NCBI GenBank assembly: GCA_003151395.1 | Contig: PLXJ01000041.1 | Span: 18,783-50,870, forward strand | Length of the DNA: 32,088 bases | Direction of reading: 5' to 3' | From: Actinomycetota bacterium | GTDB lineage: Bacteria; Actinomycetota; Actinomycetes; Nanopelagicales; Nanopelagicaceae | Part shown: piece by piece, positions 9,802-21,301 of the stretch | How positions within the stretch are numbered: position 1 is the stretch's first letter | Layout of the letters: every line of letters starts with the position of its first letter | Program-made: the position numbers and the translations under genes | The notes under the pieces: model-generated | Database searches by the model: none | What the model saw: the letters and a program-made list of their open reading frames with translations, nothing else | Told to the model about the DNA's origin: nothing

Positions 9802-10761
9802 CTAAATAAACATCGCTTCCACTAAACCAAGGTCGGTGAAATCGGCGGAGACTAAGTCACCTGGTTGCACGAAAGTATGCGCCGTGCACGTGCCCGTGCT
9901 CACAAGTTCCCCCGCGTTAACATCGCGCCCCCGCTCCCTGGCCCAGTTCACCATCCAGGTGAGGCTTGTCACCGGATGACCCATCGCCTCAACTCCTTTG
10001 CCAGATTTAATAAAGGAGCCATTTACATAGACATCAATGTTGGAATTAGGTAAGTCGATATCCTTCCAATCAACGTGCCTTCTTCCAGTTACAAATGCGG
10101 CTCCCCCAGCATTGTCATACATACCACCAAAGTAGCCACTTAAACTGTACCAATCCTCAAATACCGAGTCGCCAATTTCAATGACTGGCATTAAACACTC
10201 AATGCCTGCACGTAAATCTGCTTCTGAATATTCTTTCTCTCGTGCGGGAAAAGGCAAACCCAACTCGTAGGCGAATTCAAATTCGCAGAGACGATAATTA
10301 ACAAAGAATTCCGAAGGCACCACTGCTGGACTCTTGAAAATCGATCGCTTGAAAAGTCTTCCCGGGGAAGGGCTTGGAACATTTTCAGCCTTGCGGACTT
10401 CTTGACTCGCAGCTCCTACTTTCCAGCCGGCACCTTCCCAGCCAAGGGCAGACTCCAATTTTAGAATCACCTCTTCAACCGAATTCCACGACCTGGCGCG
10501 TAAGCGCTCCGGCATCACAACCGGAGTACGAGTATGTCGACCATGGACAATCAGATCGATTAGTTCTTGAACTTCTTCGCTAGTTAAATCGCTTTCACGG
10601 GCAGAGGGAATAGATCCGCCAGGAGGTGTAGGACCGTGAATAAGTCGACCACGAGTCGTGAGGTGGTCCGGAAGTGGGATTGATTTTTCAGAGCGAAGTT
10701 TTAGAATGCGATCGATCTCGTAAGCAGTTGGTTCTTCATTGACCCGCGTTGAACTCTGCAT
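9802..10761 (-). CDS. 2-keto-4-pentenoate hydratase-like (MhpD/FAH superfamily) protein
   Basis: A 319-residue FAH-fold protein of the hydratase/decarboxylase branch. GWKVGAAS near 112-119 matches the family's conserved GxKVG block; the acidic metal ligands are expected in CEFEFAYELG (E160 and E162); DNAGG near 216-220 and GHPVTSLTWM also fit. Relatives hydrate 2-hydroxypenta-2,4-dienoate, decarboxylate 4-oxalocrotonate, or dehydrate 2-keto-3-deoxy pentonates. I chose ATG at 10761 because TGGAG lies six bases upstream; a longer in-frame reading to 10887 overlaps the SDR and has no ribosome site. The N-terminal 110 residues are longer than in MhpD and may carry an extra region. Confidence 0.82.
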   Translation of the reverse strand: MQSSTRVNEEPTAYEIDRILKLRSEKSIPLPDHLTTRGRLIHGPTPPGGSIPSARESDLTSEEVQELIDLIVHGRHTRTPVVMPERLRARSWNSVEEVILKLESALGWEGAGWKVGAASQEVRKAENVPSPSPGRLFKRSIFKSPAVVPSEFFVNYRLCEFEFAYELGLPFPAREKEYSEADLRAGIECLMPVIEIGDSVFEDWYSLSGYFGGMYDNAGGAAFVTGRRHVDWKDIDLPNSNIDVYVNGSFIKSGKGVEAMGHPVTSLTWMVNWARERGRDVNAGELVSTGTCTAHTFVQPGDLVSADFTDLGLVEAMFI

Positions 10762-10795
10762 AATAAACTCCATTTCGACAGGTGAGACTTCAGAA

Positions 10796-11557
10796 TTAAT
10801 AGACGGCGCGTCCTCCAGAGAGGTCAAATGTGAAGCCAGTCGTGAAACTGCAAGCAGGGGAAATAATCCACGCAGCCAACAATGCAACTTCCGAAACGGT
10901 GCCGAAGCGATTCATCGGAATTTTTGACTTGAGGAAAGCCAGTGTTGAGTCCGAAAAACCTTCAAGAATTGGCGTCTCGATTAGCGCGGGAGCCATGGCG
11001 TTAACGGTTACCCCTGAAGTCGCGTACTCCTTTCCGATACTTTTTACCATTCCAATCAATCCAGCTTTCGTAGCCGAATAAGAAACCAGAAGTGGATTGC
11101 CATCTTTGCCGGAGATGCTTGCCAGGTGCAGAATCCGTCCATAGCCGCGATCGGACATCCCTTTGAGTAGCGCTTTCGTGAAGATCAATGCACCTCTCAA
11201 ATTGATTTGGTAGACCAGATCAAAGTTCGCTATATCGACATCCTCCGCTTTGCTTCCATTCTCTCCCAGAATTCCGACGCAATTTATTCCCCCGTGAATT
11301 CCACCTAAATCATTTTCAACTTTCTTTACACAGTCATTGATGGATTCTTCGCTGAGAAAGTCGATCCCGTAGATATGTAAATTGGGGCTCTGAGATTGGG
11401 CCTTAAATTCGTCCAAGGCCTCCAAGTTCTTGTCGCATGCTGCGACCACGGCTCCCCTGGTTAGAAGCAAACTAGCGATCGCGCGACCAATACCGCTGCC
11501 GGCTCCAGTAACGAGGATGAGATGCCCGGTGATATCTTCTGGACTGGGAGAGCTCAT
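10796..11557 (-). CDS. Short-chain dehydrogenase/reductase
   Basis: A 253-residue classical SDR with TGAGSGIG at 17-24, the NAG-equivalent NCVG at 92-95, and the catalytic S147, Y160 and K164. The C-terminus ends in FDLSGG, typical for the family. The ATG directly follows the stop of the ADC-like gene and is preceded by AGGAAG, so translation is coupled. It presumably oxidises or reduces a hydroxy group of the operon's substrate; the sequence alone does not identify it. Confidence 0.88.
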   Translation of the reverse strand: MSSPSPEDITGHLILVTGAGSGIGRAIASLLLTRGAVVAACDKNLEALDEFKAQSQSPNLHIYGIDFLSEESINDCVKKVENDLGGIHGGINCVGILGENGSKAEDVDIANFDLVYQINLRGALIFTKALLKGMSDRGYGRILHLASISGKDGNPLLVSYSATKAGLIGMVKSIGKEYATSGVTVNAMAPALIETPILEGFSDSTLAFLKSKIPMNRFGTVSEVALLAAWIISPACSFTTGFTFDLSGGRAVY

Positions 11558-12319
11558 TTAGCTTCCTTTCTTTGCTAGGTCAACGAGTATTTCACCCGGG
11601 ACCAAAGTGAAATCAACTTTCCAGTAGAAACTCACCAGAGTTTCAAGAACCGGGAGTTTGTATAGTGGAGCGTTGATATTTGGTTCGAGTACCAACGTTG
11701 CAGGTCCTTTCCAGCAGTCATGCACCACGACATCTGCTAGAACTCGCGACGTTATCTGGTTAATTCCTTCAGTGCCATCAATGTTCCGTACTATTTTGTG
11801 ATTTATATTCTCTCGAAACGGAAAGTAATTGCTTAACTCTTCGATATTGGCTTTTTGGTATTTGTAGGGAGTTGTCGATCGAGCGATGGTTATCCCATTT
11901 CTGCAAATCTCAGAGACAATGGTGTCGCCTCGAACTTCGATTGTCGTGTTTCCAAATTTCTTTGGTTGACCATGAATTTCGCGACCTTGACTTAAGCCAA
12001 CATCGGAACTGATATAAAGATTGGTACTAAATCCGCCGAAGTGATCACCCCCAGGTGTTGAGACCTTTACGCCTGTCATGATATTTGCTTCTTGCACCTC
12101 ACCCATGCCCGCAACATCGGGCATATGATAAAAGTGAACCATCACCGTATCGCCAGTGCTTTCAATCGGATCGACCAAATGCTCCGAAATAGCCGTGGGA
12201 TCAGTTCGGTAAACCGTCGTCATGATTTCAACGTTTCGATATTCAATAGGAAATCTCGGGAAAAGCGGTGCGTTTTTGGGGCTGGTCCAGATATCGGATG
12301 CAACCTTTTCAACGCTCAT
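11558..12319 (-). CDS. Acetoacetate decarboxylase-like (ADC fold) protein
   Basis: A 253-residue member of the ADC family. The motif GREIHGQPKKFGN at 112-124 contains the lysine pair that in clostridial acetoacetate decarboxylase holds the Schiff-base lysine; here K120 is the candidate. The upstream acidic segment GEVQEAN resembles the family's glutamates. Many ADC-fold proteins are not acetoacetate decarboxylases but aldolase-dehydratases or decarboxylases of other keto acids. The GGAAGG before the ATG is good. Its first codons overlap the 3' end of PPDK by 11 bases. A beta-keto acid arising from a sugar acid is a plausible substrate (inference). Confidence 0.82.
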   Translation of the reverse strand: MSVEKVASDIWTSPKNAPLFPRFPIEYRNVEIMTTVYRTDPTAISEHLVDPIESTGDTVMVHFYHMPDVAGMGEVQEANIMTGVKVSTPGGDHFGGFSTNLYISSDVGLSQGREIHGQPKKFGNTTIEVRGDTIVSEICRNGITIARSTTPYKYQKANIEELSNYFPFRENINHKIVRNIDGTEGINQITSRVLADVVVHDCWKGPATLVLEPNINAPLYKLPVLETLVSFYWKVDFTLVPGEILVDLAKKGS

Positions 12320-15047
12320 GCTGGATTCCTTCCTCTGATTTCTTTCGTTTGGTATCTGCCGAAGCTACCGAAACCTTGGTAGATATACCTGCGCGCCCCG
12401 CTTCCAATCTAGCTACTGGCACTCGGAATGGAGAGCATGAGACATAATCTAAACCCGTTCTCTGAAAAAAGTGGATACTTGTTGGGTCTCCACCATGTTC
12501 GCCGCAAACGCCTAATTTGAAAGTGGGAGAGAATTCTCGCGCTTGCTCCTTGGCAATTTTGATTAGTGATCCGACCCCGTCTTGATCCAAGGATTCAAAG
12601 GGATTGAAGGGCAGAAGTTCCAGATCCAGATACCTCGGCAGAAAGGTCGATTCTGCATCATCGCGACTAAAACCGTAGGTCAATTGGGTGAGGTCATTAG
12701 TGCCAAAAGAGAAAAAATCGGCGTATTCAGCAATTCTTGATGCGGTTATTGCTGAACGCGGGGTTTCGATCATGGTTCCAATTGGAATATCGATCTCATG
12801 ACCGGTGCCGATCAAGACTTGTTTTATTTCATCTTCCAAACTCTCTCGGAGGTGCAGGAGTTCTCGTTGTGTTGCAACGAGTGGGACCATAATTTCTGGA
12901 ATCGGATTGTGACCCATCCTTCGCACTTCAATTGTTGCAAGAACCAGGGCGCGAACCTGCATTTTAAAAAGATCTGGAATTAATATTCCAAGTCGCACTC
13001 CGCGCAGTCCCAGCATTGGATTGCTCTCATGCATGCGTTTAACCGCGCTAAAGATCGCGGCCTCTTTTGGAGTTATCACTTGGCCCAGCGCCTCTGCACG
13101 AGCCAACCGAGCGGACATCTCTGAAAGTTCTGGCAAAAATTCGTGGAGCGGAGGATCTAACAGACGAACAGTTACCGGCAATCCCGACATCGCCATCATG
13201 ATTCCGACGAAGTCAGTGCGCTGCAGCGGCTCCATCTCGGCTAGCACGCTCTTTCGAACCTCGTCACTCTCCGCAAGAACCAAGCGCTCGACGTAGGAAC
13301 GTCGCTCGCCCAAGAACATATGCTCCGTTCTACAAAGCCCTACGCCTTGAGCTCCCAATATTCGCGCTCGAACCGCATCTTCCGGTGTATCTGCATTTGC
13401 ACGTACCTCCATTGTGCGCTTGGCATCAGCCAATTTCATAATGCGGTCTACGGCTTTAACTACCGAGCCAGCGGAATCCGTTTGAGCGGAGATCCTTCCT
13501 TCGAGGTAGGAAGTCACGGCAGAGGCGATTACAGGTACCGCTCCTAAGTAAACAGCTCCGCTTGTTCCGTCAATTGAAATTACTTCACCTGCGTGGACGA
13601 TGGTTTTCCCGATCGTAAAGAAAGTGTTCGAATCGTCGATGCGAATGCTCTCTGCCCCACACACAGCCGTCTTGCCCATTCCCCTAGCGACTACGGCAGC
13701 GTGTGAAGTTTTGCCGCCCCTGCTCGTGAGGATTCCCTGCGCGGCAACCATTCCAACCAAGTCATCTGGGCTCGTCTCTTTGCGAACCAAAATGACTTTT
13801 CTGCCCTCTCTGGCTTCATTTTGCGCGGTATAAGAATCGAAAACGACCTCTCCAACCGCCGCCCCAGGCGAAGCAGGTATACCGCGAGCAATTTCTACAA
13901 TCTCGCGATCTAAATCAAACTGCGGAAACATCAGACGCGCTAACTGATCTCCAGAAACGCGGGTAAGCGCTTCATCTTCGGTGATTTTCCCCTCGTCAAT
14001 CAACTGACAAGCAATTCGAAATGCGGCTTCAGCCGTTCGCTTTGCTACCCGAGTTTGAAGTATCCAAAGTTTGCCATCTTCAATCGTGAATTCAATATCG
14101 CAAATGTCGCGATAATGTAACTCTAAATTCATCATAACTATTTCGAGTTCCTCATGTGCCACTGGGTGTAATTTCTTCAAATCGGCCAATGGAAGGGTGT
14201 TCCGAATACCCGCAACCACGTCTTCACCCTGTGCCATCTGCAAATAATCCCCATAAGAACCAAACTCTCCGGTGGCAGGATTGCGCGTGAAGGCGACTCC
14301 AGTTCCCGATTTCTCCGAGAGATTTCCAAAGACCATGGATTGAATATTTACGGCGGTACCTAAATCAGATGGGATTCGCTCGCGACGTCGGTAAAGTTGG
14401 GCCCGTTCTGAATTCCAGGAATTAAAAACCGCGACAATCGCTTTTTTGAGTTGCTCCATGGGATCGTGAGTAAATGGTTTTCCAGTGAAGGACGCTATTA
14501 ATCCGACGTATGCCTCGCCTAACTCTTTCAGTTGTTCCGCGTTCAGATCTGAGACGGCAACTTCGCCAAAATGGAGAGAGTCGATCTTCTTAAATTCTGC
14601 AACTGGTATTTCGTGCACAATTCTGCCGAACATTTCAATAAATCTCCGATAGGTGTCCCAGGCGAATTTAGCGTTTTTTGATTTATCAGCTATCCCCTGT
14701 GCAACCTCAGGGTTGATACCCAAATTAAGGATTGTTTCCATCATGCCCGGCATCGAAAACTTTGCACCTGACCTCACAGAGACCAAGAGTGGATTCCTGA
14801 CGTCTCCGAGTTTTTTACCCGTGGATTTCTCCAGATGCTTAATCGAAACTTCCAACTCATCTAGAAGTCCGTTCGGTATCACCCCCTGCCGAAGAAAATG
14901 GCGGCAAGCATCGGTGCTTATCGTGAAGCCATCGGGAACAGGTAGCCCCAAACGAACCATCTCTGCAAGGTTTGCGCCCTTACCGCCGAGCAGTTCAGAT
15001 TGGCTTTTATCGCCATAAGAAAAAGGATAGATAAATTTTGTCTTCAT
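12309..15047 (-). CDS. ppdK: Pyruvate, phosphate dikinase
   Basis: A 912-residue PPDK, which reversibly converts pyruvate, ATP and phosphate to PEP, AMP and PPi. Seen in order: the N-terminal ATP-grasp (LLGGKGANLAEM, SVRSGAKFSMPGMMETIL), the swivelling phosphohistidine domain with GGKTSHAAVVARGMG (catalytic His and adjacent regulatory Thr), and the C-terminal PEP barrel with CRTEHMFLGERR, GLRGVRLGI, FSFGTNDLTQ and the catalytic-cysteine motif GVCGEHGG. The protein is about 35 residues longer than typical because of a charged C-terminal tail (TKRKKSEEG). Its ATG overlaps the extended-SDR stop. In an operon of catabolic enzymes it probably recovers PEP from pyruvate for gluconeogenesis. Confidence 0.96.
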   Translation of the reverse strand: MKTKFIYPFSYGDKSQSELLGGKGANLAEMVRLGLPVPDGFTISTDACRHFLRQGVIPNGLLDELEVSIKHLEKSTGKKLGDVRNPLLVSVRSGAKFSMPGMMETILNLGINPEVAQGIADKSKNAKFAWDTYRRFIEMFGRIVHEIPVAEFKKIDSLHFGEVAVSDLNAEQLKELGEAYVGLIASFTGKPFTHDPMEQLKKAIVAVFNSWNSERAQLYRRRERIPSDLGTAVNIQSMVFGNLSEKSGTGVAFTRNPATGEFGSYGDYLQMAQGEDVVAGIRNTLPLADLKKLHPVAHEELEIVMMNLELHYRDICDIEFTIEDGKLWILQTRVAKRTAEAAFRIACQLIDEGKITEDEALTRVSGDQLARLMFPQFDLDREIVEIARGIPASPGAAVGEVVFDSYTAQNEAREGRKVILVRKETSPDDLVGMVAAQGILTSRGGKTSHAAVVARGMGKTAVCGAESIRIDDSNTFFTIGKTIVHAGEVISIDGTSGAVYLGAVPVIASAVTSYLEGRISAQTDSAGSVVKAVDRIMKLADAKRTMEVRANADTPEDAVRARILGAQGVGLCRTEHMFLGERRSYVERLVLAESDEVRKSVLAEMEPLQRTDFVGIMMAMSGLPVTVRLLDPPLHEFLPELSEMSARLARAEALGQVITPKEAAIFSAVKRMHESNPMLGLRGVRLGILIPDLFKMQVRALVLATIEVRRMGHNPIPEIMVPLVATQRELLHLRESLEDEIKQVLIGTGHEIDIPIGTMIETPRSAITASRIAEYADFFSFGTNDLTQLTYGFSRDDAESTFLPRYLDLELLPFNPFESLDQDGVGSLIKIAKEQAREFSPTFKLGVCGEHGGDPTSIHFFQRTGLDYVSCSPFRVPVARLEAGRAGISTKVSVASADTKRKKSEEGIQHER

Positions 15048-16084: not shown

Positions 16085-17191
16085 GTGGACACCGTTGCCA
16101 AGATTGAGATCTTCGAGGCGAAAGTCCCGCTGGCCAAACCCCTATCGGTTGGTGCTGCGAAAATTACCTATCGAAGTTACACGATTGTAAAAGTTTCTAC
16201 AGCCGATGGGATCGTTGGTATCGGTTATTGCTACAGCCGTGGTCTCCCGATGGGTCAAATAATAAAGAACGTTATGGCCCCGATTGCGATTGGAAATTCA
16301 GCCGAGGATCCGAACAAAATCCGGAAAGAGATTTTGGCCTTTAATTGGCAATCTGCAGAACATGGGACGTTGACTGCTGCGTTAAGCGCGCTAGATCTTG
16401 CACTCCACGATATCCAAGCCAAACGCGTGGGAAAGACCGTAGCTGCAATGTTGGGCGCAACGGTGGACAGAATTCCGATTTATTCAGTGATTGGATACAA
16501 CTACGGAGATGATGAATCTGGGTTAAGAGATGAGATTGATTACGCGTTAAGCCGCGGAATCCGATCTTTTAAAATGATTGTGGGAGGGCATAGTCCGGAA
16601 AGGGATGCAGCGCGACTAGCTACTCTCCGCGATAAAGTTGGAACCAGCATGCCTGTTGGAGTAGATGCATTTCGCACTTTCAAAACCTTAGATAACGCAA
16701 TCAATCGAGTTAACCTCGTCAAAGAATTTGGAATTAATTTTGTAGAAGACCCATTTTTAGAATCGGAAGGTCTTCTCGCGCGACAGTTGCGCGAGGCGAC
16801 AGGGGTACCGATTTCCTACGGGGAATCCTTAGCCTCCTCCAAAATGATCGCCCAAGTACTTGATCACGATGAGTGCGACATCCTTCGAATTGATGCCCTC
16901 GTCGTGGGAGGCGTTTCCGAATTTATGACGGCAACATCGATGGCTGCGGCAAAGGGGAGAACTTTTTCTACCCATATTCACACCGAGATCCATTCACAAT
17001 TAGCTGCTGCGACTTCCAATCTCTATATCGGAGGTCTGGAGTATCTGGATCCAATGTATGAGATCGACTTATTCCACCATTTGCTTCATCTACCTATTCA
17101 AATCGAAAATGGCGCCGCCATATTGTCAACCAGCCCTGGGTTTGGCATCCATTGGGACTGGGAAGCAATCGTGCACTTCTCGCAAGAATGA
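16085..17191 (+). CDS. Mandelate racemase/muconate lactonizing enzyme family (enolase superfamily) protein
   Basis: A 368-residue enolase-superfamily enzyme; these abstract the alpha-proton of a carboxylate, usually in acid-sugar dehydratases or racemases. Metal ligands are D194 (GVDAF), E221 (FVEDPF) and E247 (SYGES); the acid/base dyad D270 and H297 (FSTHIH) and E319 are present, with nearly the same numbers as in mandelate racemase. The usual KxK at the end of the third barrel strand is K163-M-I165: the second lysine is isoleucine, and the usual VDAN is VDAF. This argues for a dehydratase relying on the His-Asp dyad and against a racemase. The start is GTG, probably leaderless. First gene of the plus-strand operon. 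Confidence 0.88.
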   Translation: MDTVAKIEIFEAKVPLAKPLSVGAAKITYRSYTIVKVSTADGIVGIGYCYSRGLPMGQIIKNVMAPIAIGNSAEDPNKIRKEILAFNWQSAEHGTLTAALSALDLALHDIQAKRVGKTVAAMLGATVDRIPIYSVIGYNYGDDESGLRDEIDYALSRGIRSFKMIVGGHSPERDAARLATLRDKVGTSMPVGVDAFRTFKTLDNAINRVNLVKEFGINFVEDPFLESEGLLARQLREATGVPISYGESLASSKMIAQVLDHDECDILRIDALVVGGVSEFMTATSMAAAKGRTFSTHIHTEIHSQLAAATSNLYIGGLEYLDPMYEIDLFHHLLHLPIQIENGAAILSTSPGFGIHWDWEAIVHFSQE

Positions 17192-17206: not shown

Positions 17207-18169
17207 TTGCTGAATGAACAATCCGTCGTTCCATATCTCCGCCATCGAGGTATTCTCAACAATGATGCAACTGTAGAAATTTTCGGCGGTGGAGTGTCGA
17301 GTAGAGTTTTCGGTATTCAAAATCATGATGTGGACTTGGTACTTAAGCAGGCTTTGCCGGAATTGAAATCAGCAATCACCTGGCCGGCCGATCGTCGCCG
17401 TGCTACAACGGAAGCCAGGGCAATAAAGACCTTCCAGGCGATCACCCCTAAAAATGTTCCGCGCTTGATGGATGTGGACCCCGAAGAATTTACCGTCACA
17501 ATGACTCGAATGCCACGAGAATTTTTGGTCTGGAAATCTGAACTACTAGCCGGAAATATTCAACCAGAAATCGGGCGAGAACTCGGAAGAATATTGGCTT
17601 TTTGGCATAACTTTGGAGTTGAAAATGAAGCTATAAGAGCGCGCTTTTTGGAAGAGAAAGTATTTGAACAATTGCGAGTCTGGCCCTTCTATCGTGTCGT
17701 CCAAGAACAAAATCCACTTTTTTCCAAGATGATTTCTATGATGATCGATGAGATCACGCAAGAGAAGACCACGCTCGTCCACGGAGATTTCTCACCAAAA
17801 AACATTTTGGTCGCGTCTGGGCAGGAACCGATAATTTTGGATTTCGAAGCGATCAACACCGGCAATCCCGTCTTTGACCTCGCTTTCCTATTGGCTCATT
17901 TAGTTTGCAAAGAAATTCGTAGTGACGTGCCAGGTGAGAAAGAGTTGTTGCGTCAAACAGCAATCGAATTCTTAGCTTCTTATAAGCAAGGCTCAATTCT
18001 TGAGATTGCTCCTAATCTAAAAGACCATGTCGCGCTTATTGCACTTTCTCGAGTTGACGGTGTTTCCCTCGTCAAATATTTAGATGGAGCTAAGCAAGAA
18101 AAGGTTAGGTCTATCACGAAGGAAATTCTGGGCAGCCCAGGAGCGGATGTGACGGACCTATTCATATGA
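17207..18169 (+). CDS. Aminoglycoside phosphotransferase (APH)-type small-molecule kinase
   Basis: A 320-residue APH/choline-kinase-fold protein. A glycine-rich loop (FGGGVSS) near 26-32, a candidate ATP-binding lysine K47, the catalytic loop HGDFSPKN at 192-199 and the metal-binding LDFE at 211-214 are all present. The overall pattern recalls methylthioribose and homoserine kinases. It starts with TTG at 17207, supported by ATGGAGGG about eight bases upstream, and ends in an ATGA overlap with the enolase-like gene. The location predicts phosphorylation of a hydroxy acid or sugar acid whose product the next enzyme uses (inference). Antibiotic resistance is unlikely in this setting. Confidence 0.85.
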   Translation: MLNEQSVVPYLRHRGILNNDATVEIFGGGVSSRVFGIQNHDVDLVLKQALPELKSAITWPADRRRATTEARAIKTFQAITPKNVPRLMDVDPEEFTVTMTRMPREFLVWKSELLAGNIQPEIGRELGRILAFWHNFGVENEAIRARFLEEKVFEQLRVWPFYRVVQEQNPLFSKMISMMIDEITQEKTTLVHGDFSPKNILVASGQEPIILDFEAINTGNPVFDLAFLLAHLVCKEIRSDVPGEKELLRQTAIEFLASYKQGSILEIAPNLKDHVALIALSRVDGVSLVKYLDGAKQEKVRSITKEILGSPGADVTDLFI

Positions 18170-19434
18170 AGATTACTCAGCTCATGGGATATCAAATCCT
18201 CGATTCCAGGGGGAAGCCAACGGTTGCAGCCTCGCTTATCCTTGATGACGGAACAGTTCACACGGCGCGTATTCCCTCCGGGGCATCCACTGGCAAACAC
18301 GAAGCAAGAGAGATCCGGGATCATGAGGGCAAATTCGCTGGGGGAATGTACAGGGGGAACTCTGTTTATCAAGCTTGCGAAAACATCAATGAGTTAATTG
18401 CTCCTGGCCTTATTGGACGAACTCCTGATCTAACTGCAGTAGATCAATTCATCGCTCACCTCGATCCAACTCCAGGTTTTCAACGAATCGGAGCGAACGC
18501 ATCTTTGGCTATTTCAATCGCAGTGGCTAAAGCACAAGCCCATTCGGAGAGGAAATCTTTGGTCAGGCTTTTTCAGCCAACTGGCCAGTTAAAATTGCCG
18601 ATGCCTATGGCGAATATCCTGTCCGGGGGCGCGCATGCACGAAACACGATGGATATTCAAGATGTACTTGTAATCCCACATGGTGCTTCATCTTTCCACG
18701 AGGCCCTCTCCTGGCTATCGGCCATCCGAGAGAGCGCAGCAAGAGAAGGTGTTGTGCTGGGCGCTCCTACACATCTGACCGCAGATGAAGGTGGACTGGC
18801 GATCGAATTCCCGACAGTCGAAGGCGCTTTTGACTTTGTGACTTCATGCATTTCAAGCGTAGGACTTAGAACTGGAACTGATGTCTCATTGGCCATCGAT
18901 TTCGCTGCAACACAGTTTTATCATGACGGAATTTATCGACTTGCAAAGGCAAAGCGAGAATTCCAGGCGACAGAATTTGTCTCATACGTGCGTCACTTGG
19001 TAAATAGCCATCCGATCATTTCAATTGAAGACCCTTTTGCGGAAGATGACTGGAATTCCTGGAACGCCTTTATGGAAGAAATTCCCGAAGGTCTACAAGT
19101 TATAGGAGATGATCTCTACACCACCAATCTTTTGAGATTAGAGCGTGGGATAAAGGAGAATTCCTCCAATGCAATCTTGATAAAACCCAATCAAAATGGG
19201 CTCCTTACCTCGACTTTAGAAGTTTTACAGAGAGCTCAGCAAAGCAACCGAAAGACGATTGTTTCGGCGCGCAGTGGAGAGACCGAGGATTCATGGCTGG
19301 CTGATCTTGCAGTCGGGTGGGGAGCTGAACAAATAAAGGTAGGCTCCACACATGGCTCAGAACGAACGGCAAAGTGGAACCGGCTGCTTGAACTAGAAGC
19401 GACCGAAGCATGCGATTTCGCTCATCCTTTTTAA
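18166..19434 (+). CDS. Divergent enolase (phosphopyruvate hydratase paralogue)
   Basis: A 422-residue enolase, about ten residues shorter than usual. Retained: YQILDSRGKPTV, PSGASTG, GGAHA (H157), ADEGG (E208), metal ligands D245, E288 and D315, lysine base K340 (LIKPNQ), RSGETED and K391. Changed: the QE dyad is QD (D166 where yeast enolase has E168), the SHRSGETED histidine is alanine (A368 for yeast H373), and the C-terminal IKTGAPCRSER block reads IKVGSTHGSER. It may be a slow enolase or act on a different 2-phospho acid. The ATG overlaps the kinase stop. With glycerate kinase next, 2-phosphoglycerate to PEP is the default reaction. Confidence 0.85.
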   Translation: MKITQLMGYQILDSRGKPTVAASLILDDGTVHTARIPSGASTGKHEAREIRDHEGKFAGGMYRGNSVYQACENINELIAPGLIGRTPDLTAVDQFIAHLDPTPGFQRIGANASLAISIAVAKAQAHSERKSLVRLFQPTGQLKLPMPMANILSGGAHARNTMDIQDVLVIPHGASSFHEALSWLSAIRESAAREGVVLGAPTHLTADEGGLAIEFPTVEGAFDFVTSCISSVGLRTGTDVSLAIDFAATQFYHDGIYRLAKAKREFQATEFVSYVRHLVNSHPIISIEDPFAEDDWNSWNAFMEEIPEGLQVIGDDLYTTNLLRLERGIKENSSNAILIKPNQNGLLTSTLEVLQRAQQSNRKTIVSARSGETEDSWLADLAVGWGAEQIKVGSTHGSERTAKWNRLLELEATEACDFAHPF

Positions 19435-19453: not shown

Positions 19454-20602
19454 GTGAACGCCAAAGATCGAATAGCGATCGTAGCCCCCGACAAATTTAG
19501 AGGCAGCGCGCACCAAAAGGAATTGATCGAGACGATTGCTACAACGCTCGATGACTCTGGAGATTTCACGAAGATCCTTAAATTCGAGATCGCAGACGGT
19601 GGCGAGGGAACTTCTACCATTTGGCGTAATTTGGGTTGGCACGAAATCAAATTAATAGTTGCCGGCCCGCTAGGTGATCTACATCAAGCATCAATTTACC
19701 AATCACCGGATCAGCGAAAAATTGGAATCGAACTCGCGGAATGCTGTGGCACAAAGTGGCTCTCGGGACGACAAGAACCCCTTGATAGTTCAACTTTTGG
19801 CCTTGGTCAAGCGCTTAAAAGTGCAATGGCCCTCTCCCCGAGCGAAATCATTGTGGCCTTAGGTGGTAGCGCTAGCAGCGATGCCGGCGCAGGAATCGCC
19901 GAAGCGCTAGGTCTCCCATATCTCGATGCTCAAAAGAAGATGGTTCGACGAGGTTTAAAGGGTCTAGGAAAATTTCGGAGGATTGATCACGAAGAATTAG
20001 AGAGATTTAGAGATTCAATGCAGCACATAAAGGTAAGAATATTGACCGATGTCGCTAATCCAATCTGCGGGAAAAACGGAGCTATACGTTCCTTTGGTGA
20101 GCAGAAAGGACTTAACTCTATACAACGTCGGTATTGGGATCGCGTTATGTACAAGGCTGTAAAGCGGTTGGAAAAAACCACTCAAACCAAACTCTTAGGT
20201 GTTCTCGGATTCGGTGCTGCTGGTGGCACTGCATTGGCGATCAATCTCTTCTTTCAAGGAGATATTGAGTCAGGAGCAGAATATTGCTTGCAAGAGAGCG
20301 GCTTCTTAGCTGCCCTCCCCCAGGCCGATCTAGTTGTCACCGGAGAAGGCAAACTCGATTCAACCACGATTCAAGGCAAGACCGTCTTTAAAATACTCAC
20401 GCACTGCAGAAACCAATCTATCGACTCTTTAGTAGTGGTAGGACAAGGAAAGAAAAAAATAGTAAAGATGATCGAATCAGAATTCCCACTGACGAGAATT
20501 TACTCATTGACCAAGTTAGCCGCGTCTTCCAGCGAATCCTTGAAAAACCCTCATAAGTACATTAAAGAAGCTGTTACCCAATATCTCAAAGAAAAGGATT
20601 AG
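19454..20602 (+). CDS. Glycerate kinase (GlxK/GarK family)
   Basis: A 382-residue glycerate kinase, normally producing 2-phosphoglycerate from D-glycerate and ATP. Family motifs are intact: APDKFRGS near the N-terminus, IADGGEGTS, VALGGSASSDAGAGIAEALG, DVANPICGKNGAI followed by FGEQKG, GFGAAGG, and VTGEGKLDSTTIQGK. The start is GTG at 19454 after a weak AACGAG. It lies 19 bases after the enolase-like gene, which would convert 2-phosphoglycerate to PEP. This links a glycerate-releasing catabolic route to lower glycolysis and to the PPDK of the opposite operon. Confidence 0.93.
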   Translation: MNAKDRIAIVAPDKFRGSAHQKELIETIATTLDDSGDFTKILKFEIADGGEGTSTIWRNLGWHEIKLIVAGPLGDLHQASIYQSPDQRKIGIELAECCGTKWLSGRQEPLDSSTFGLGQALKSAMALSPSEIIVALGGSASSDAGAGIAEALGLPYLDAQKKMVRRGLKGLGKFRRIDHEELERFRDSMQHIKVRILTDVANPICGKNGAIRSFGEQKGLNSIQRRYWDRVMYKAVKRLEKTTQTKLLGVLGFGAAGGTALAINLFFQGDIESGAEYCLQESGFLAALPQADLVVTGEGKLDSTTIQGKTVFKILTHCRNQSIDSLVVVGQGKKKIVKMIESEFPLTRIYSLTKLAASSSESLKNPHKYIKEAVTQYLKEKD

Positions 20603-20644: not shown

Positions 20645-21301
20645 GTGACAAGATTTATCACGGCCGAAAAGCTTAAAGATAAAACCTATTTCGAAAAAAC
20701 TAAATTTGCGTTGTTGACTGAGATTCAAAGCGGCAAGATTGTTTGTGCCGGTCTCGAAAATGGGTATGTATATCTGGCTTATCCGTATAGTCAGGCCGCA
20801 GTAGATAAGTTCCGCGAAATCGCCATGCGGGATGAAGACACCTTTTTCCCAGTACTAATTCCTGATTTGAGCGTTATGGAATCACTGACTGGCGCGGCAT
20901 CCCCAGAGTTAAAACTCCTTGCATCCACTTTTTGGCCAGGACCGATGAACGTGGTTGCACCCATAATCCCCGGATTGAACATTAATTTTGGCGCTAACAA
21001 ACCCCCGGCTAGCATCTATTGCAGAGTCCCCAGCAATAAGTTTCTGCGGGAGTTATTAGGTTTAATTGGACCCTTAATTTATGCGACAGCGCCGCAAATT
21101 TCGGGGCAACCAGCGCGTCAGGTAGCTGACATCGCTCCCAAGATAAAGAAACAGATTGACATCATCATAGATTCGGGGCGTTGCAGATACACCAGGCCTG
21201 CCACGACCGTAAGTTTCGTTACTCAACCGCCAAAAATATTGAGGCAAGGCATCATTGATGAAATCAAATTGCGTAGCGTCCTACAACATCTTTCAGATTA
21301 A
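20645..21301 (+). CDS. Degenerate YrdC/Sua5-like (TsaC fold) protein
   Basis: A 218-residue protein with the second half of the YrdC/Sua5 pattern: TFWPGPMNVV (usual FWPGPLT), IYCRVPSN (usual vRvP), IYATAPQISGQPA (usual TSAN-SG) and PATTVSF near the end. The N-terminal substrate motifs are poor: the usual PTDTVYGL reads ENGYVYLAY and the KxR segment is not evident. TsaC makes threonylcarbamoyl-AMP for tRNA t6A; this copy has probably lost or altered that role. The start is GTG at 20645, with no clear ribosome site. It is last in the operon after glycerate kinase, and its stop shares bases with the convergent UlaG-like gene. Confidence 0.72.
   Translation: MTRFITAEKLKDKTYFEKTKFALLTEIQSGKIVCAGLENGYVYLAYPYSQAAVDKFREIAMRDEDTFFPVLIPDLSVMESLTGAASPELKLLASTFWPGPMNVVAPIIPGLNINFGANKPPASIYCRVPSNKFLRELLGLIGPLIYATAPQISGQPARQVADIAPKIKKQIDIIIDSGRCRYTRPATTVSFVTQPPKILRQGIIDEIKLRSVLQHLSD

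Follow-up and report, generated by a model that had tools for sequence, protein, structure and literature searches.

Enolase (EC 4.2.1.11) is commonly regarded as an enzyme of a single reaction. In the yeast protein K345 serves as general base and E211 as general acid (PMC4450660), and E168 is catalytic according to the Catalytic Site Atlas (PMC4922564). In the structure of Synechococcus enolase with phosphoenolpyruvate (PEP), a water lies 3.5 Å from C3, hydrogen-bonded to Glu168 and to His367, the counterpart of yeast H373; the lysine base acts from the opposite face (PMC8996150). In the serine cycle and in galactarate/glucarate catabolism, enolase dehydrates a 2-phospho acid made by a glycerate kinase, and a hydroxyacid dehydrogenase is found nearby; the known glycerate kinases form three unrelated classes (PMC2063504). 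Here we describe a locus that resembles these routes in outline and differs from them in its parts. The window, a stretch of 32,088 nucleotides from contig PLXJ01000041.1 of a member of the Actinomycetota, encodes on its forward strand a 422-amino-acid enolase, ENOv (18166-19434), and directly ahead of it an APH-family kinase, APHk (17207-18169); the two reading frames share four bases, ATGA. As in the known routes, a kinase would make the 2-phospho acid that an enolase dehydrates, and hydroxyacid dehydrogenase genes lie near such pairs, but APHk is not of class I, II or III and ENOv, a dedicated paralogue, has an altered active site.

ENOv is homologous to enolase over its whole length. It matches the curated NCBIfam model TIGR01060 (eno) with 401.9 bits against a cut-off of 300, it contains enolase Pfam domains only (PF00113/PF03952 family), the MR/MLE domains PF13378 and PF02746 were not found in it, and its AlphaFold model is confident, with an enolase-like secondary structure (mean pLDDT 93, pTM 0.92). 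Our alignment reference was yeast enolase 1, whose sequence was verified against PDB 1ebg (full-length top match). The alignment upholds the reading of the active site given in an earlier note on this DNA: E168 is replaced by D166 (codon at 18661-18663, positioned from the alignment numbering) and H373 by A368 (codon at 19267-19269, inside the motif SARSGETED), while the metal ligands, the lysine base and E208, which corresponds to yeast E211, are kept. In yeast numbering the retained residues are S39, H159, Q167, E211, D246, E295, D320, K345, R374, S375 and K396. Throughout the clade to which ENOv belongs, the magnesium ligands D246, E295 and D320 and the loop residue S39 are those of enolase, with one aligned member gapped at S39, and so are the catalytic residues K345, K396 and E211; at the catalytic positions 168 and 373, all 120 members have D and A. 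The clade keeps the residues for proton abstraction, two-metal stabilisation and general acid catalysis, and alters precisely the pair that holds the water at C3. The ordinary enolase of the same genome, whose absence would have counted against the earlier note's reading, lies on a separate contig (G000:C31), has SHRSGETED and QEF intact and is 44% identical to ENOv. At least one further enolase was present in each of the 20 variant-bearing genomes checked, so the idea of a second-type enolase beside a canonical one, also put forward in the earlier note, holds well beyond the window.

Members of the clade were sought in a species-level genome collection with a degenerate DNA pattern for SARSGETED, which occurred at a minimum of 116 loci. 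At least 14 phyla were represented among the listed matches that had an assigned phylum, and the leading ones among the matches listed were Pseudomonadota, Acidobacteriota, Actinomycetota, Verrucomicrobiota, Chloroflexota and Planctomycetota. Alignment and phylogeny, which the earlier note had proposed as checks, agree with a distinct type. Of 167 aligned enolases, 120 had D168 with A373, 47 had E168 with H373 and none had a mixed state; most of the 120 variants were retrieved through the A373 motif, so A373 is partly given by construction, and D168 lies outside the pattern. In 60 relatives, a set free of this bias, neither change occurred without the other in the loci read. The same 167 sequences revealed further clade-specific positions: N155 is G or S, G209 is A in 95%, A215 is mostly W or G, and T397 is V or I. 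All the remaining catalytic and metal residues are invariant among 36 aligned variant members. A maximum-likelihood tree made with columns 168 and 373 masked (a quick method, with SH-aLRT in place of bootstrap support) put all 55 sampled variants on one side of a branch with an SH-aLRT value of 99. The variant gene is patchy in the window's own genus: of about 30 species few carry it, which is what a peripheral function would lead one to expect. The variant gene of Enterobacter was unmatched in 5,426 E. coli genomes. A kinase-linked enolase clade was not described in the full texts that we searched, a body of literature that leaves out most subscription journals. Judged by their sequences, the variant enolases form a real and coherent subfamily with a dedicated kinase, apparently undescribed.

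The earlier note took the changed residues to mean either low enolase activity or a different substrate. Substitutions at the E168 and H373 positions of yeast enolase are reported to reduce activity (Poyner 1996; Brewer 1997), and the change of two catalytic-site residues could be taken to indicate a degenerate or moonlighting enolase of little catalytic role, carried with a kinase of unrelated function. Between ENOv and its nearest relative, pN is 0.18 and pS, which is near saturation, is 0.75. This low pN relative to pS, together with conservation across phyla, points to a maintained function under strong purifying selection, and low activity in the sense of decay is unsupported. Such selection, the invariance of the other catalytic and metal residues in the 36 aligned members and the obligate-like pairing with an intact kinase make a degenerate enolase most improbable.

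That pairing is the best-supported part of our analysis: the kinase and the variant enolase are functionally coupled, as adjacency, co-occurrence and the correlated distances of the two proteins all indicate. The earlier note had seen the coupling in the window, and it recurs at most other loci. Among 87 loci with at least 600 bp of upstream sequence, 72 have an orthologous kinase immediately upstream on the same strand, mostly with the ATGA overlap. Eleven genomes in which the kinase is not adjacent were checked and eight of them have it elsewhere in the genome; at two such loci in Terriglobia/Bryobacterales (L228 and L231), the unlinked kinase gene lies less than about 5 kb from a gene resembling a gpmI-type phosphoglycerate mutase, a call made by eye from the N-terminus. 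Co-occurrence is near-obligate. In the set of 60 relatives nine genomes have the kinase, and every one of them has the enolase; none of the 50 genomes that lack the enolase has the kinase. The enolase of one of the nine (G031) is a fragment cut by a contig end just behind the kinase, and in G007 an enolase fragment stands at a contig end with no kinase. In G031 (locus L225, G031:C222) the kinase match itself carries one in-frame TGA, possibly a sign of a pseudogene or an assembly error. Across 396 Actinomycetota genomes, strong kinase matches were found in exactly the three genomes that have the enolase signature; a weaker match in G191, which has no variant enolase, comes from a paralogue that is more distant (27% identity) and lies beside a PPDK-like gene. 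The pairwise distances of kinase and enolase are correlated over 91 loci with r = 0.88, the best of 2000 permutations reaching 0.24; we give no formal probability because related genomes are not independent.

APHk belongs with the APH-family small-molecule kinases (PF01636) and has their HGD and DxE catalytic motifs intact, as HGDFSPKN and DFE. Its predicted model is confident (pLDDT 96) and it scores above cut-off for APH-type families alone. Among its family matches there was no glycerate kinase homology, whether to PF02595, MOFRL or PRK-type families (class I, II or III). The nearest named sequences are methylthioribose kinase and 4-hydroxytryptamine kinase. APHk nevertheless differs from methylthioribose kinase in falling far under the cut-off of its model (TIGR01767, 65.2 bits against 275, through the N-terminal part alone), in having invariant basic residues of its own (K110, R157, K235 and R282) and in being linked to an enolase. 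Since APHk stands outside all three classes of glycerate kinase, even a role on D-glycerate would be new.

We lean, with moderate confidence, towards a phosphorylate-then-eliminate module in which a separate clade of enolases acts on a substrate other than D-2-phosphoglycerate. From the retained catalytic residues we infer the type of reaction, abstraction of the C2 proton and elimination at C3 of a 2-phospho acid, and ENOv probably represents a related, so far undescribed dehydration step in sugar-acid breakdown. In the scheme that we propose, the hydroxy acid would come, in many hosts, from a D-2-hydroxyacid dehydrogenase or an FAH-type hydrolase, and APHk would phosphorylate the 2-hydroxyl of a 2,3-dihydroxy acid. 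In ENOv the conserved lysine (yeast K345) would then abstract the proton at C2, with the two metals as platform, and E208 would act as general acid in the expulsion of the 3-hydroxyl, yielding a phosphoenol acid. The positions of E168D and H373A, at the pair that binds the C3 water in ordinary enolases, suggest that the pocket is remodelled at its C3 end, and it may accommodate a 3-substituted 2-phospho acid (C4 or longer) or the L isomer. This remodelled site, the dedicated kinase, the canonical enolase in all 20 genomes and a class I or II glycerate kinase in 18 of 21 variant-bearing genomes are our reasons for favouring a substrate other than D-2-phosphoglycerate. A more specific version, in which an O2-phosphorylated aldonic acid or C4-C6 2,3-dihydroxy acid loses its 3-hydroxyl to give a 2-phosphoenol-3-deoxy acid, is offered tentatively. 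If it were true, that product would be a high-energy analogue of PEP with a phosphate that might be recovered or put to use in forming C-C bonds, and the enolase family proper would gain a second physiological class of substrate. The MR/MLE and IlvD/EDD dehydratases found in the same clusters also dehydrate 2,3-dihydroxy acids, but they act on the free acid with no phosphorylation step and with other active sites.

An altered C3 site would also fit a leaving group larger than water, and ENOv might eliminate an amine, ether or glycosyl group from C3. The changed pair is the one that holds the C3 water in the Synechococcus structure (PMC8996150), and some clusters contain enzymes of aromatic type, an HpaD-like dioxygenase among them; against this, E211, which serves as general acid when hydroxide departs, is invariant, the contexts are mostly of the sugar-acid kind and nothing in them hints directly at such a substrate. 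We regard a non-water leaving group as very unlikely.

Judged by the neighbouring genes across loci, the setting of the pair is the breakdown of sugar acids or of hydroxy acids like them, with no pathway common to all loci. A strict-clustering search for conserved neighbours returned little besides the kinase-enolase pair itself. The commonest third partner, at about 20 of 135 loci, is a D-2-hydroxyacid dehydrogenase nearest to glyoxylate reductases and to phosphoglycerate and glycerate dehydrogenases. In Rhizobium and Streptomyces it adjoins the kinase although the enolase is a few genes off, and in a metagenome-assembled genome of the Caulobacteraceae it does so although the enolase is unlinked. 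In alphaproteobacteria the genes downstream of the enolase encode an FAH-type hydrolase near L-2,4-diketo-3-deoxyrhamnonate hydrolase, and SDR proteins; in Cohnella the order is FAH, ADH, APHk, ENOv, MR/MLE, ADH. The type of cluster seen in Rhizobium, Burkholderia and Streptomyces adds a cupin, an HpaD-like dioxygenase, a protein of the carboxymuconolactone decarboxylase family and an alcohol dehydrogenase, and the Rhizobium cluster has a PEP carboxylase nearby. PEP carboxylase and pyruvate, phosphate dikinase (PPDK) were considered as fixed partners and rejected, as neither recurs across contexts.

Several of these neighbours would suit plainer chemistry, in which D-glycerate is formed by reduction of hydroxypyruvate, APHk represents a fourth class of glycerate 2-kinase, unrelated to the other three, and ENOv makes PEP from D-2-phosphoglycerate, the whole serving as a dedicated peripheral module with both residue changes tuning kinetics and not specificity. 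The dehydrogenase partner suggests plain D-glycerate, a glycerate kinase stands within the window's own run of genes, FAH hydrolases of the diketo-deoxy-sugar-acid type are a possible source of glycerate, and a PEP carboxylase (Rhizobium) or PPDK (window) close by would suit PEP as the product, although neither is conserved. Further points weigh against our preferred reading: the E-to-D swap is conservative, the loci show no consistent presence of an enzyme that would consume an unusual phosphoenol acid, and the neighbourhoods are heterogeneous, with both sugar-acid and aromatic-like clusters. On the other side, a canonical enolase and, in most hosts, a classical glycerate kinase are already there; with a glycerate kinase in 18 of 21 genomes, and adjoining ENOv in the window, a second plain route from D-glycerate to PEP would be redundant. 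Moreover, two residues that are invariant in the 47 canonical enolases have been replaced in strict concert. We consider the plain route less likely than our preferred reading, but a serious rival to it. The earlier note's proposal of a different 2-phospho acid stands as a plausible and favoured hypothesis; the frequent dehydrogenase partner and the adjoining glycerate kinase would suit plain glycerate chemistry too.

In the window the run consists of an MR/MLE acid-sugar dehydratase-like gene (16085-17191; nearest NCBIfam model L-talarate/galactarate dehydratase, below cut-off), APHk, ENOv, a class I glycerate kinase (19454-20602; TIGR00045, PF02595) and, as probable last gene, one for a Sua5/YciO/YrdC-domain protein (20645-21301), all on the forward strand, with gaps of 15, -4, 19 and 42 bp in that order. 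The last protein scores 88 bits against an NCBIfam cut-off of 123 and is 83% identical to its counterpart in G020. PPDK is encoded on the reverse strand of the window in a divergent neighbouring run (12309-15047); a PPDK or PPDK-like gene was also noted at L239 (2783-5338). The association of PPDK with ENOv is loose, because it adjoins the kinase-enolase run in the window and is kept in the nearest relative, G020, yet is not near ENOv at the G011 locus. Also on the reverse strand, an FAH-family reading frame with a TTG start (9802-10887) overlaps an SDR reading frame (10796-11557) by about 90 bases; the FAH-family gene probably starts further downstream. Other genes overlap the 3' end of the variant enolase elsewhere: in Chloroflexota an rsmG-like gene (identified at L081, with homologues at L091 and L130) and in Acidobacteriota a 453-amino-acid gene conserved at both L085 and L097, which is probably the TldD/PmbA-type match of the pooled Pfam scan.

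The proteins of this clade are annotated as 'phosphopyruvate hydratase' in the public records examined. A clade that is present in at least 14 phyla, with a coupled residue change and a dedicated kinase, means that many genomes are mis-annotated, and it offers a clean test of the roles of E168 and H373. If the substrate is new, these bacteria would possess an extra route of carbon catabolism and a phosphoenol metabolite of a new type; should D-2-phosphoglycerate be the substrate, they would still have a glycerate 2-kinase of a fourth class and an enolase in which a supposedly obligatory active site has been replaced.
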